64,000 bases of DNA from Arthrobacter cryoconiti (GTDB lineage Bacteria > Actinomycetota > Actinomycetes > Actinomycetales > Micrococcaceae): contig NZ_JAJJBU010000007.1 of assembly GCF_020905375.1 (NCBI RefSeq), forward strand, positions 62,001 to 126,000, in the 5' to 3' direction. A program made the position numbers and the translations under genes. The notes beneath the pieces were generated by a model. The model worked only from the letters and a program-made list of their open reading frames with translations. It ran no database searches and was not told the origin of the DNA. Position 1 is the stretch's first letter. Each line of letters opens with the position of its first letter. This document shows positions 3,334-33,921 of the stretch, in pieces.

Positions 3334-3911
3334 GCCAGTCAACACTGATTCGACGTTTATCGCGGCGTGAAACACACTCGGCCCGCTCGGCGCTTTCCAT
3401 CGTTTCGGGGGCAGTTCTACTGATTCTGATCCTGTGGTTGGTAGTGGAGTTGGTGCTCTCGATGACGGGCAATGCACCACTGACCCTCTCTCCTGCCGAG
3501 CTTGCTGAGCGCACGGCTGCGCTGGCCACTGATACTCTTCCCGCAGCCCTGTGGGGGGCCGCTGCTGTGTTGGTGTTGTTGGGACTGGTGCTCGTCTCTG
3601 CCGCGATCCTGCCTGGGCGCAAGTCCAGACACGTCCTTGCCAACCCAAGGTCCGCCGTCGTGGTTGACTCTCAAGTGCTAGCGGGCGCCATTTCACGCAT
3701 CGCCCGCAACGCAGCAGGGCTAGCACCGGAACAGGTCACCAGCAGCGTGGGCCGCAAGCGCGTTCATGTGGTGCTGGACCCCGCCTCAGGCCGGGCTGTG
3801 GATACGGAAGCCGTGCGTGCGGCTGTGCAGAAGCACACGTCGGGCTATGAACTCCGACGCCCATTGGCGGTGTCGGTTACCAATGCCCAGGATACGGCGG
3901 TGGGCGCATGA
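3330..3911 (+). CDS. Membrane protein of the Asp23 operon (DUF6286/AmaP-like)
   Basis: 193 residues with two transmembrane helices (about 24-44 and 70-91) and a cytoplasmic C-terminal domain of about 100 residues. That domain (SAVVVDSQVLAGAISRIARNAAG...KRVHVVLDP) has the strand-helix pattern of the Asp23-interacting domain in AmaP-type anchors and in DUF6286 proteins. A basic N-terminus fits N-in topology. It overlaps its neighbours by ATGA on both sides. Probably it recruits the soluble Asp23 proteins to the membrane; that role is inferred from the family and context. Confidence 0.75.
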   Translation: MSQSTLIRRLSRRETHSARSALSIVSGAVLLILILWLVVELVLSMTGNAPLTLSPAELAERTAALATDTLPAALWGAAAVLVLLGLVLVSAAILPGRKSRHVLANPRSAVVVDSQVLAGAISRIARNAAGLAPEQVTSSVGRKRVHVVLDPASGRAVDTEAVRAAVQKHTSGYELRRPLAVSVTNAQDTAVGA

Positions 3912-29347: not shown

Positions 29348-29499
29348 GAGAATTGATCCGTCACTAAGGGTGGAGGTCATCCGACATCCGATATTCTATG
29401 GTCAACGTCACGCGGGTGAGTTCAGTGAAGCACCAGAGGCCTTCTCACCCGAGGAATAGTTGTCGGCATTGGCCCACGCACGCGTCACAAGGAGAAGAG

Positions 29500-30231
29500 T
29501 TGTCCACTTCGACAGGAGCCCCAAAAGCCCGGTTTAGTGCCCAAGTGCGCCTTCGTGCGCTGCAGGCAGACATCATGGAACTCATTTTGGATCGTGATTT
29601 GGACGCCGGCGACCCGTTGCCGACGGAGAGTGAGCTCTCCGAGGTGCTGGGGGTAGGGCGGAACACGCTGCGCGAATCCCTGAAAGTGCTTCAAGCGTTG
29701 GGTGTCGTGGAGATCCGGCATGGTTTTGGCATGTTCGTTGCGCCGAGTAATTTCGATGCGCTGGCAGACGCTCTCACGTTCCGTGGCCGTTTGTCGCTGC
29801 GGCATGAGGGGCTGGAAGCGCTACAGCTGGTGGATATTCGCCAGGCGTTGGAGGCCGGTCTGATTGGAAGCTCGATCTCCCACGTCACGCCCGGGCACCT
29901 GAAGCTTATTGAGGGGTCGGTTGAACGCATGGAGACACTGGCGTCCCAGGGAGAGCTCTTTCCCGACGCCGACGCCGAATTCCACCGGCTTCTCTTTGAG
30001 CCCCTTGGCAACGATCTGCTGATGAATCTTATGAACGTGTTTTGGCAGGTCTACCGCAAAATTCATCTGGAGATCGGCGTGGACAGCGCTGATCTTTTAG
30101 ACACCGCTGCGCAGCACCGCGCAATACTAGATGCGGTCACTGCCGGAGACGCCATCCGAGCCTCGAAACTGCTCAGTGGTCATTTTGACGGAATCCGAGC
30201 GAAGATCCAGCTGTTCGTCGATACCGTTTAG
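29500..30231 (+). CDS. FadR/GntR-family transcriptional regulator (FCD domain)
   Basis: 243 residues. The winged helix at about 10-75 includes LRALQADIMELILDRDLDAG, PLPTESELSEVLGVGRNTLRESLKVLQALGVVEIRHG; the FCD ligand domain follows with its metal-binding pattern (DIRQALE, DADAEFHRLLFE, QHRAILDAVTAGD). It senses an organic acid or sugar acid, not identifiable here. I chose the TTG at 29500, with AAGGAG upstream, over the ATG at 29398. No metabolic gene follows; decayed transposase sequence lies downstream, so its target operon may have been lost. Confidence 0.9.
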   Translation: MSTSTGAPKARFSAQVRLRALQADIMELILDRDLDAGDPLPTESELSEVLGVGRNTLRESLKVLQALGVVEIRHGFGMFVAPSNFDALADALTFRGRLSLRHEGLEALQLVDIRQALEAGLIGSSISHVTPGHLKLIEGSVERMETLASQGELFPDADAEFHRLLFEPLGNDLLMNLMNVFWQVYRKIHLEIGVDSADLLDTAAQHRAILDAVTAGDAIRASKLLSGHFDGIRAKIQLFVDTV

Positions 30232-30689
30232 GGTGTCTGTGCTGCGCTTATAACAAACTCCCCGCAGGGAACTGACCCGCAGTTGCTTTGGGGCCAGCGC
30301 GGAAACTTGGGGATCATTGAGGCGAAAATCGCGCGGCTCAGGCGCGCGATCGAGTCCGGGTGAGTACTTATCTAGCTGCTTAACATCAGCGTCGTTAAAT
30401 TGCGTGGTTGCTCATGCCAATACCTAGTGGAAAAGGGTACCTGGGCAAGGGTTCCTAAATAGGGCAACAACTTAGCTTTCCGGAAGTATTCTGTTGCTGG
30501 TGGACGCCCCAGACGTCGAAGGAGACGGAGCCCGTCGAGTCAGACGCTGCGCTACACTCTTTTCGGCGTTCTCCGTCTGATTCAACGCAAAAAGTGTGCT
30601 TTGCGTCCGTCCCGGAGCCTTGGGATATTACCTAGATGGCTGCGAGTACGCCGCCGGTGTTGTGGGTAAGGCTGGTTCGGTAACGGTGC
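30232..30689. other. Non-coding stretch with remnants of coding sequence
   Basis: No intact gene. Bases 30243-30363 read as a short stop-terminated tail ending KIARLRRAIESG, which looks like a gene fragment. Bases 30500-30600 contain imperfect inverted repeats (GAGTCAGACG with CGTCTGATTC; ACACTCTTTT with AAAAAGTGT) that may be the end of the decayed insertion element. Confidence 0.4.
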
Positions 30690-31334
30690 TGAAACGGTAA
30701 TTGGACGCCGACCTGGCAGATATGCACCTGTTATCTGCTCCACGAACGGGTTGTCGTTGGAGCGGTGGGGCGGGATCTGGTCATGCGAACGTTCTGGACG
30801 TCGCACCAAACAGTGATCGCCGCGTCGGGAAACTCTGGCAGATGGAGTGCGGGTAATAGTTCTGAATTTCAGCCATCGCGGCTGCCACTGGTTCGGAGGC
30901 GGTCTTCTTGATCGACCGATTCACCGTCCAGCTGGTAGAGGCATCCGTGATGGTGAGTGAGAACGCATTCTCACACTAGGCACTGTTGCCGCAGTTCGCG
31001 AGCATATTGATGGGGATCGGGTACCAGTCCAGTCGATCGTGTTCGCTAGTGGGGCTGTCCTGGCCGGGACCGGTATTTCCTGCGCGGTTGCCCAGCGATC
31101 ACACAGGCCTGGTGCAATACCATTAGAGCGTCGTAGCTGTAGCTACGTTTACGGCGCGTTCGCTCCGCTCCCGCAGCCGGCCGGCGCCGCTGTCGGGCGT
31201 TGAAGAGTTGACGACGGGCATCTATTTGTCCGGACCACCTGAACTCGACGACTAACCGACCAAGGATCTCGCCCTAGGTCTTCTTCGACGCCCGAGAATA
31301 CTCCCCGGCTTCCTTCTTGGTGATTTCCCTGCGC
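30690..31334 (-). pseudogene. Decayed DDE (integrase-core) transposase
   Basis: Read on the minus strand, transposase-like blocks appear in order but in different frames and with stops. First EITKKEAGEYSRASKKT (near 31330) then, after a TAG, EILGRLVVEFRWSG and YSYDALMVLHQACVIAGQP; next, frame-shifted, TITDASTSWTVNRSIKK (near 30950); then TRSRP and SNDNPFVEQITGAYL (near 30750), which corresponds to the second half of the catalytic core. The layout matches actinobacterial integrase-core transposases. At least two stops and two frameshifts rule out function. Confidence 0.75.
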
Positions 31335-31577
31335 GCAGACAATGACAACCCCATACATCCCACCAGCCCACCCAAACATTCGCCAGAAACTTCGGGAGCA
31401 TTTCCCAAATGAGGCACGCCCCCGTTTCGCGAGCACTTTAGTTGAGTCTCGTCGAACAGTTGACTTCAATGAGACTCTGAGTAGCATCTTAAACACGTTG
31501 GGTGCGGGTTCCGGCTACTGGGGGTACACCGCACTGGCGATTCTAAGAACGACGTCGTCTCTACGAAGAGGTCTCTC

Positions 31578-32229: not shown

Positions 32230-33633
32230 ATGAGTCCAACTGAGGACACTGAGGACACTGAGGCAAACGAGGACATTGAGGTACATGGGGTCGCTGAGGC
32301 GCCGTCGCGTGTTCGGGTCCGACGCAGCACGTTCCGTCAGGGATGGACGTGGCTGGCGCTTGTCACCAGCGCCAGAATCTATCTGTTTCTTCTCCTAACA
32401 CTTGCCGCGTTTGCTTTAGTGCCAGCACTCTTCGGCATGAATGCGTCTGTGGTCCAAAGTGGGTCCATGCGGCCCCATATTCGGCCAGGAGACGTGGTTC
32501 TTACCACTGCCCTGCCCCAGGGTTCCCCGGTTTCTCTGGGGCGAGTGGTCCAGTTCCGCAGTCCACCAGAGGCGGAAGTTGACGGTATCGCGAAGCTTCG
32601 GCTGCATCGCGTGGTCGCAGCGGGAGATGATGGCACTTTCGTCACCGCCGGAGACGCAAATGAGTCCGTGGACAGCGTGCCGTTGAACAGAGCGCAAATC
32701 ACTGGTGAGGCACGGGTGCTCGTCCCTTTCGTGGGGTTACCGGGGTACTGGATGGGCATTGGGAAGTATTTACCGCTGTTCCTCTGGGCTCTGTTCACGC
32801 TGGGAGCGTTATGTGCGATGATATTCGACGAACCCGCAGAGCCCCCAGAGCGCCCCGGACCGAGAAACAGTTCACGGGTTTCCACGCGTCGTGCGTTCTT
32901 TGCGCTTACGGGTGCTGGCGCACTTGCTGCGGTTCTTGCGATCTCACGTCCTAGCACCGTTGCCGCGTTCACAACGCGGACATCGAATGTAGCGAGTAGT
33001 TGGAAAATAGCCGCACAGGCTCCATTGTCGTTGGGACGTGCGGCAGGATACGCGTTGTTGGCCTCTACAAGAATTAGTAATACCGGCTTTTTTGGCGGTG
33101 GAACGGATATTGGCGGCAGTATTGGAACAAGTCCTGGCACGACCATCACAGGTTTCTATTTCTGGAATGTGTCTGGAAGTGAAGATACTGACACGGCGAG
33201 TGCGCGAAACGCTCAGACTGATGCGGCGACTCTCTATGCGGCCGCAGGCTCACGGCCCACTGGGACGACAAGGTCCCAGACACTGAATGGAACTATCACC
33301 CCTGGTGTCTATGCATCCTCGAGTGGTGGCTTTACGGTTCCCGGCACTCTTACGCTTGATGCTCGAGGTGACCCTAGCGCTGTCTTCATTTTCAAGGCCA
33401 ATTCCTTCACCGCTGCCGCCAATAGCACCGTGAGGCTTATTAACCGGGCGTCGGCAAAAAATATCTACTGGCGGATCGCCGGTGCCGTCACCTTCAGCAG
33501 CTACAGCACCAGCGTGGGTCACTATATTGCCACAGGAAACATCGCATTTCAGAGCAATAGCAGCCTTGCCGGACACGCACTCTCTTTGTCTGGTTCCATC
33601 AGCACGGTATCCACATCTGTCACCATCCCTTAG
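32230..33633 (+). CDS. Signal peptidase I (SipW type) fused to an ice-binding-like DUF3494 domain
   Basis: 467 residues in one uninterrupted frame. After an acidic repeat (TEDTEDTE) come a membrane helix (47-69), the S26 peptidase core with catalytic Ser79 in QSGSMRPHIRPGD, His126 in LRLHRVV (ER/SipW-type base instead of Lys) and AGDAN (140-144), then a second helix (178-198). A cytoplasmic loop leads to STRRAFFALTGAGALAAVLA (about 218-237), a signal-peptide-like third helix, then AAFTTRTSNVASSW. From about 266 to the end is a DUF3494 beta-helix domain: LGRAAGYALLAST, GSIGTSPGTTITGF, NAQTDAATLYAAAG, GTLTLDARGDPSAVFIFKA, IYWRIAGAV. Topology would place this domain outside the cell. Confidence 0.85.
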   Translation: MSPTEDTEDTEANEDIEVHGVAEAPSRVRVRRSTFRQGWTWLALVTSARIYLFLLLTLAAFALVPALFGMNASVVQSGSMRPHIRPGDVVLTTALPQGSPVSLGRVVQFRSPPEAEVDGIAKLRLHRVVAAGDDGTFVTAGDANESVDSVPLNRAQITGEARVLVPFVGLPGYWMGIGKYLPLFLWALFTLGALCAMIFDEPAEPPERPGPRNSSRVSTRRAFFALTGAGALAAVLAISRPSTVAAFTTRTSNVASSWKIAAQAPLSLGRAAGYALLASTRISNTGFFGGGTDIGGSIGTSPGTTITGFYFWNVSGSEDTDTASARNAQTDAATLYAAAGSRPTGTTRSQTLNGTITPGVYASSSGGFTVPGTLTLDARGDPSAVFIFKANSFTAAANSTVRLINRASAKNIYWRIAGAVTFSSYSTSVGHYIATGNIAFQSNSSLAGHALSLSGSISTVSTSVTIP

Positions 33634-33839: not shown

Positions 33840-33848
33840 GTTATAAAG

Positions 33849-33921
33849 TGCGCGCGAAGGGATTCGAACCCCCAACCTTCTGATCCGTAGTCAGATGCTC
33901 TATCCGTTGAGCTACGCACGC
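33849..33921 (-). tRNA. tRNA-Arg(ACG)
   Basis: Cloverleaf with acceptor GCGTGCG/CGCGCGC, D-loop AGCTCAACGGATAGAGC, anticodon loop CTACGGA (anticodon ACG, the substrate of TadA for inosine) and T-loop GGTTCGAATCC. CCA is not encoded. Its 3' end faces the accessory patch at 30.2-33.6 kb. Confidence 0.96.

Follow-up and report, generated by a model that had tools for sequence, protein, structure and literature searches.

A signal peptidase joined to a DUF3494 domain in Arthrobacter cryoconiti belongs to a recurrent actinobacterial class of peptidase-cargo fusions paired with a TasA-like gene

In the window analysed here, a stretch of 64,000 nucleotides from Arthrobacter cryoconiti, a single open reading frame joins a signal peptidase to a third, signal-peptide-like helix and a DUF3494 domain, and our findings place this architecture in a recurrent actinobacterial class that carries swappable cargo and is paired with a TasA-like gene. 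The usual description of a signal peptidase is that of a stand-alone enzyme. Our preferred reading, to which we assign a probability of about one half, is that the two neighbouring genes in Table 1 form a SipW-TasA-type matrix unit in which the peptidase bears a TapA-like initiator or tip and frees it by cleavage. The upstream gene would make a TasA-like donor-strand fibre subunit, and the fusion gene an ER-type signal peptidase dedicated to that subunit, with a second substrate joined to its C-terminus through a cytoplasmic loop and the third helix. The peptidase would cut the fibre subunit in trans at A↓A-F and its own passenger at the same motif, either in cis or between neighbouring copies. 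The DUF3494 domain would thereby be released with a new N-terminus resembling the donor strand of the fibre subunit and could act like Bacillus TapA, as fibre initiator or tip, bringing an adhesive or ice-binding-like head for which relatives would use Ig, laminin-G, RCC1 or beta-propeller domains instead.

Translated on the forward strand, the fusion gene yields 467 residues and zero stops. A preliminary description of this DNA had read the frame as a SipW- or ER-type signal peptidase followed by a signal-peptide-like helix and a DUF3494 beta-helix lying outside the cell, and both the nature of the third helix and this topology are borne out by the profiles and the structural model. Ser79, His126 and the GDAN motif (residues 141-144) lie where it had placed them. 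The identity of the C-terminal domain, previously proposed from motifs, is confirmed by a match to PF11999 (Ice_binding) of 117 bits and E-value 1.2e-33, against a Pfam cut-off of 28.7, and by fold comparison. For the peptidase head, the NCBIfam model TIGR02228 (signal peptidase I, sigpep_I_arch) covers residues 51-170 with an E-value of 4e-13 and 49.5 bits, below its cut-off of 51.85, and Pfam Peptidase_S26 scores 20.4 bits where its cut-off is 22.9; the relative L117 exceeds the TIGR02228 cut-off with 60 bits. The kept Ser, His and Asp residues and a SEC11A-like fold uphold the proposed head, and the sub-threshold matches of the window protein point the same way.

Sequence comparison with PDB entries relates the N-terminal part to human SEC11A/C and the C-terminal part to the ice-binding proteins 5uyt and 6eio. 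The AlphaFold2 model, built from a 29-row alignment, has a mean pLDDT of 84.9 and a pTM of 0.52, with values of about 90-98 in the DUF3494 domain and below 50 in residues 238-261. At E ≤0.001, Foldseek returned 32 matches, namely 31 ice-binding or antifreeze chains, all with E <1e-7, and SEC11A; the best match of the C-terminal part is the solved ice-binding protein 7bwy (TM 0.92 by target length), and that of the N-terminal part is human SEC11A (7p2p_A, E 3.5e-4, TM 0.53 by target). Pfam names no domain in the fusion besides Ice_binding and S26, and hence no cofactor-binding outer domain; no TapA-named match appeared in the Pfam or NCBIfam scans, and a scan for promoter and terminator signals gave no excess over shuffled sequence.

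Table 1. Positions in the window of the two genes and of the features assigned within the fusion gene
Feature	Residues	Positions	Strand	Basis
Upstream gene: TasA/camelysin-like fibre subunit by fold, with SipW-type signal A40↓A41-F42	213 aa	31578..32219	+	
Fusion gene: signal peptidase with third helix, proposed cleavage site and DUF3494 cargo	467 aa	32230..33633	+	
Membrane helix 1	39-67	32344..32430	+	AlphaFold2 secondary structure
Catalytic domain	about 69-176	32434..32757	+	TIGR02228 match, conserved S/H/D columns, SEC11A fold match
Ser79 (TCC)	79	32464-32466	+	
His126 (CAT)	126	32605-32607	+	
Asp142	142	32653-32655	+	
Membrane helix 2	180-198	32767..32823	+	AlphaFold2
Third, signal-peptide-like helix	215-237	32872..32940	+	AlphaFold2, hydropathy
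Twin arginine R220-R221 (T-R-R-A-F-F), start of helix 3	220-221	32887..32892	+	Fits TatP default pattern
Proposed cleavage site A245↓A246-F247, aromatic P2'	245-247	32962..32970	+	Aligned A-A-F; A-x-[FWY] enrichment
Donor-strand-like stretch of the proposed mature cargo	246-260	32965..33009	+	Top-scoring of the tested cargo windows against upstream-family profile
DUF3494 (Ice_binding) beta-helix	277-464	33058..33621	+	PF11999, Foldseek

The same architecture recurs in related genomes. A first search, over 23 genomes of the genus, found three members, whose open frames span 858, 851 and 514 aa; they share the head and third helix and carry different cargo. A four-row head alignment, used to search 395 genomes of the window's family, located window-type heads at 31 places in 30 genomes, all scoring at least 143.8 bits, with the next match at 80.9. 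The columns of Ser79, His126 and Asp142 are kept in all 31 members. Their cargo was classified by Pfam at an E-value of 0.01 as Big_7 (15 members), Laminin_G_3 (seven) or Ice_binding (six); two of the remaining three, L066 and L080, contain DUF3494 cargo with a broken or shortened frame, and in L082 the protein stops shortly past the proposed site. The DUF3494 cargo of L066 occupies two frames, divided at a C-rich stretch near position 3860, through either a draft error or a real break.

Relatives were also sought in named genomes. The full fusion protein gave 75 pattern matches there, none of them confirmed, and head alignment A3, which comprises 30 of the 31 family heads (L082 omitted), gave 106 relatives among 138 pattern matches, the best 80 of which were kept. 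Within these best 80 of 106, fusions to DUF3494 come from Kocuria, Zafaria, Labedella, Gryllotalpicola, Planctomonas, Curtobacterium and Cellulomonas; those to Ig domains come from Arthrobacter, Pseudarthrobacter, Paenarthrobacter and Paeniglutamicibacter. In searches at the levels of order and phylum, the head was found at an E-value of 1e-22 in 32 (order) and 16 (phylum) of 396 genomes each, the window genome being in both sets, and some of these heads stand alone. Distant cargo identified by Pfam includes RCC1 repeats (L206, E 1.4e-62), WD40/PQQ beta-propellers (L149) and a glycine-rich domain (L219, E 2.5e-20), with weak matches to CBM_5_12 (L180, 0.007) and CBM_2 (L134, 7.4e-5). The repeat-type cargo of Cryobacterium was named by eye, and Pfam gave no match on the cargo of L114, which is one of these, or of L136 and L183.

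Several further arrangements were seen beside these. Five loci (L181, L182, L184, L186 and L196) have helix 3 and an A-x-F/W site followed by no more than some 20 residues, which could be an almost empty cargo slot or a peptide for release. In Clostridia and Ruminococcus (L155-L158 and L162-L170), an S26-like domain lies at the C-terminal end of long frames, of about 400 or 990 aa, which are possibly fusions in reverse order; in L155 and L156, Pfam identifies no domain at the N-terminal end. Ig-type fusions are plasmid-borne in Arthrobacter sp. TMP15 (L251) and in A. alpinus (L252, 4001-6463); on the former plasmid (5001-7559 and 8794-9936), genes for an ice-binding protein that stands alone and for a class F sortase come after the fusion. 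The two plasmid-borne members are annotated merely as “Ig-like domain-containing protein.”

The preliminary description had held that a signal peptidase with cargo on the same chain is not a standard described architecture. This stands insofar as the titles and abstract beginnings of those openly licensed PMC papers that our searches returned contain no description of a signal peptidase-cargo fusion, and the available portions of two pertinent works, on DUF3494 architectures (PMC9957290) and on fibrillar adhesins (PMC8286594), present no such fusion; the former counts 237 Pfam architectures containing the DUF3494 domain. Its picture of a singular protein was nevertheless too narrow, as the fusion is one member of a recurrent class.

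The distribution of cargo over the heads indicates that domains have probably been swapped at one junction, because a tree of 101 heads requires 21 changes of cargo label, the minimum being 11 and the mean for shuffled labels 65.8. By cargo, seven changes concern laminin-G, three DUF3494 and one Ig. Excluded from this tree were cut rows, heads that scored below 105 bits and rows duplicating those of the family; its bootstrap had not settled, and its repeat-type (Cryobacterium), FN3-like and TasA-like labels were assigned by eye. Tails shorter than 100 aa belong to 24 of the 101 heads, most of these being free of cargo. In a comparison of the DUF3494 domains themselves, all 13 fused domains fall on one side of a branch with support of 100/100 against 24 stand-alone domains, a split to which sampling may add, since the 24 all come from the window's family. 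Within that family, 33 of 395 genomes encode DUF3494 at all, and seven of those hold eight fused places.

The gene just upstream of the fusion is the second recurring feature of the class. It ends 10 nt before the fusion start and shares with it the same A↓A-F site. Of 91 loci, 84 have a homologue just 5' of the head, with its end no more than 377 nt from the head domain; all 31 members of the family set have one. The 91 loci amount to fewer independent genomes, some having been taken from two collections (e.g., L061 and L095), and the profile used to find the homologues was rebuilt from its own matches. Upstream matches are partial or weak in L063, L080, L082, L118 and L135. No homologue was found in L113, L144 and L149, where little upstream DNA is available (324, 246 and 573 nt, respectively), or, despite about 6 kb of upstream DNA, in L132, L138, L143 and L147, all of which encode stand-alone peptidases.

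The TasA reading of the upstream gene was adopted because profiles of the wider family and fold comparison pointed there. PF12389 (camelysin/TasA) matches seven of 36 upstream homologues (best 6.9e-7) and the NCBIfam TasA model four of 36 (best 1.2e-4), so that sequence ties the family no more than weakly to camelysin/TasA; the window's own upstream protein gave no significant Pfam or NCBIfam match and no PDB sequence match of weight. Its AlphaFold2 model has a mean pLDDT of 81.4, and the top Foldseek match of this model is the cryo-EM structure of the TasA fibre, 8aur (E 5.7e-5, TM 0.49), a remote relationship at 15% identity, followed by a FimA variant and a Sulfolobus filament. On the 5' side, a 1.3-kb gap without a clear gene (30232-31577) adjoins the upstream gene, and the frame at 29398-30231 looks by eye like a GntR-type regulator. 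A tRNA-Arg gene (anticodon ACG; 33848-33921, reverse strand) begins 215 nt past the fusion stop, and the pair may sit at an integration-prone place.

Just past helix 3, the fusions share a site of the kind expected for SipW substrates. In the 31 aligned family members, P1 is Ala in all 31 and P2' is Phe in 30 and Leu in one. A wider survey examined 99 tails, 80 of them distinct, and found A-x-[FWY] at this place in 68 of the 80, against a mean of 0.199 in equal windows of the same cargos, which are unmatched for the Ala-rich composition beside the helix. The 12 tails without the strict site comprise two that have no third helix (L199 and L200), two with Leu (L081 and L211), five in which the aromatic residue comes one or two positions further on (L117, L124, L130, L136 and L142) and three with Ser at P1 (L125, L152 and L213); four of them, L081 with Leu at P2' and L117, L124 and L130 with the later aromatic, are DUF3494 tails. 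In Bacillus, TasA has Phe at P2' and is processed by SipW, and E. coli LepB is reported to cut such sites poorly (PMC10269814). We conclude that the fusion probably cuts and releases its own passenger, a putative case of self-processing, and the SipW-type A↓A-F site past helix 3 supports the self-delivery of the DUF3494 domain that the preliminary description had suggested.

Stand-alone DUF3494 proteins of the family rarely have such a site, with an aromatic P2', as judged by eye, in one of 24 readable signals. This sole case is the second DUF3494 protein of the window genome (L002 = L240; L002 1378-2310, reverse strand), where the signal AAAQW puts Trp at the SipW-type aromatic position, and which could be a SipW substrate in trans. 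The window genome also encodes a second, stand-alone SipW with two small exported proteins upstream (L003 99-2133, near 305876 of contig C23), whose sites, as read by eye, have Trp (ATW, ALW) and not Phe.

The residues that follow the proposed site resemble the start of the upstream protein. In B. subtilis, the TasA donor strand comprises residues 28-38, with F29 packing in the contact, and the TapA N-terminus is described as resembling this strand and as a possible supplier of the first strand (PMC9674648, PMC10151520). We compiled a donor-strand profile from 30 distinct upstream-family starts, taking the 14 residues past the P2' Phe and excluding P1-P2'. Across 75 fusions (L080, L180 and L185 were omitted as too short), the best stretch just past helix 3 outscores all other tested cargo windows in 63, the window protein included; by cargo class, this holds for 10 of 14 ice-binding, 20 of 20 Ig, 14 of 17 laminin-G and 19 of 24 other fusions. 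An earlier scoring, in which 37 of 72 scored rows (78 rows in all) were best, had anchored the wrong Phe in many rows and is superseded. At the level of sequence, the resemblance agrees with a TapA-like role and also with an extended SipW recognition motif, two possibilities that this test cannot separate.

A further feature is commoner in the DUF3494 class. According to Tooke and others (PMC5449189), dual Sec-Tat membrane proteins hand their last helix from Sec to Tat and are marked by an even helix number, a twin-arginine motif, low hydrophobicity and positive charges past the helix. In 78 fusions (L199, L200 and L201, which have no third helix, were omitted here and in the earlier donor-strand scoring), the TatP default pattern (PMC1182353) precedes helix 3 in nine of 15 DUF3494 fusions, the window protein among them, compared with none of 20 Ig, two of 17 laminin-G and two of 26 other fusions; for nine of 15 against four of 63, Fisher's test gives p 1.4e-5. 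The pattern is missing in six of the 15, including every one of the four from the Curtobacterium-Gryllotalpicola-Planctomonas branch. Insertion costs, added up plainly over helix 3 in rows that are related by descent, have a median of +3.9 for DUF3494 fusions and -1.2 for Ig fusions, and positive residues past the helix average 1.53 and 0.10, respectively. The window protein itself has RRAFF, a helix 3 sum of +3.0 against -1.9 and -1.0 for helices 1 and 2, and two positive residues past helix 3, and TatC is encoded in its genome. Since the pattern alone occurs in 23% of RR-bearing membrane proteins (PMC1182353), we treat a twin-arginine route for the DUF3494 cargo as hypothetical. The most elaborate version of it, which we consider unlikely as a whole, is a one-chain starter: Sec would insert the peptidase with its two helices, the DUF3494 domain would fold in the cytoplasm and pass to Tat via the twin arginine of helix 3, self-cleavage would follow at A245↓A246, and the freed strand would start or cap a TasA-like fibre. 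If this were true, dual Sec-Tat biogenesis, self-processing and donor-strand nucleation would be united in one protein with a freely swapped tip.

Several findings speak against the matrix unit: the TasA match is remote, the window's own upstream protein matches no profile significantly, the Pfam and NCBIfam scans of the fusion name no TapA, the P2' control windows are unmatched in composition, the DUF3494 class has the donor-strand-like stretch on top in no more than 10 of 14 and four tails that depart from the strict site, and 24 of 101 heads have short tails. Other explanations have to be weighed as well. The fusion might serve self-processing export only, releasing an adhesive or ice-binding-like domain in fixed ratio to the enzyme, with the upstream product as just another substrate and no co-assembly. 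Such a function would explain the SipW-type site and the kept catalytic residues without any fibre role and would suit the great diversity of cargo types; the almost constant presence of the upstream gene (84 of 91 loci) and a likeness to the upstream N-terminal strand that extends beyond the needs of P1-P2' (63 of 75) argue against it, and we give it well under even odds. Alternatively, helix 3 could be an uncut anchor that keeps the cargo displayed on the surface beside the peptidase. In the Ig class, this helix does look like a good membrane helix (median -1.2), but a pure anchor needs neither the Ala found at P1 in 31 of 31 members nor the Phe at P2' in 30 of 31, and the helix is poorly hydrophobic in the DUF3494 class (median +3.9, window +3.0), which makes anchored display quite improbable.

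An accidental fusion or assembly error in a single genome, the concern behind the preliminary description's mention of a stop hidden between about 33000 and 33060, is hardly credible. The frame is open at those positions and, because relatives keep one frame across the junction, we reject a sequencing or assembly error: the frame is unbroken past the junction in 15 distinct DUF3494 fusions and in the 63 fusions with other cargo that were examined. The broken or shortened DUF3494 frames of L066 and of L080, a second Kocuria rosea copy, would be in keeping with an accident, but in L066, the nearest relative (70% identical in the head), the frame is kept over the junction and broken later, inside the cargo. 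Conservation in relatives thus refutes this explanation.

The interchangeable Ig, laminin-G, RCC1 and propeller domains look like binding modules. Relatives with a DUF3494 fusion include, among the best 80 of 106, Kocuria rosea, Cellulomonas chitinilytica and Curtobacterium pusillum, which are not known as cold specialists. Arthrobacter sp. TMP15, from a meltwater pond and of the same genus as the window, bears an Ig-type fusion. PF11999 is listed among the adhesive domains of fibrillar adhesins, there as an ice-crystal binder (PMC8286594). We favour a putative binding tip over a free antifreeze, with ice as a possible ligand in view of the meltwater origin of TMP15, though its fusion is of the Ig type.

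Beyond the single protein, the analysis brings to light a fusion of peptidase and apparent substrate that recurs in Actinomycetota and goes together with a TasA-like gene. Annotation can hide such proteins. If our preferred reading of a matrix unit is correct, the TasA donor-strand matrix system extends to Actinomycetota with an interchangeable tip, and these proteins provide a natural fusion of enzyme and substrate whose cis cleavage, handover from Sec to Tat and initiation of fibres could be probed through single-residue changes.

Among known systems, dual Sec-Tat proteins such as the actinobacterial Rieske protein, Sco3746 and YkuE-like proteins, as described in PMC5449189, resemble the fusion in having two helices, a twin arginine, a last helix of low hydrophobicity and positive charges after it, whereas the fusion has no cofactor domain and its last helix precedes a cleavage-type site. 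With DUF3494 ice-binding proteins (PF11999), the fused domain has the sequence profile and beta-helix fold in common, yet the fused domains branch apart from the 24 stand-alone ones of the family, and of 24 stand-alone signals that could be read, one has, by eye, an aromatic P2'. The sipW-bsaA locus of Clostridium perfringens is reported to direct a SipW-dependent extracellular polymer that is expressed more at low temperature; its SipW is encoded by a separate gene, with no cargo fusion mentioned in the portion of that source available (PMC7395162), unlike the arrangement found here. The closest parallel is the B. subtilis tapA-sipW-tasA operon, where, as in the window, a dedicated ER-type signal peptidase adjoins a gene for a TasA-type donor-strand fibre, TasA-like by remote fold match in the window (PMC9674648, PMC10151520, PMC10269814). 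Common to both would be a substrate with P2' Phe and a second substrate, minor in B. subtilis, with a donor-strand-like N-terminus. In contrast to that operon, the unit described here has two genes instead of three and nothing matching TapA by name, and its proposed second substrate lies on the peptidase chain itself, with an exchangeable domain.
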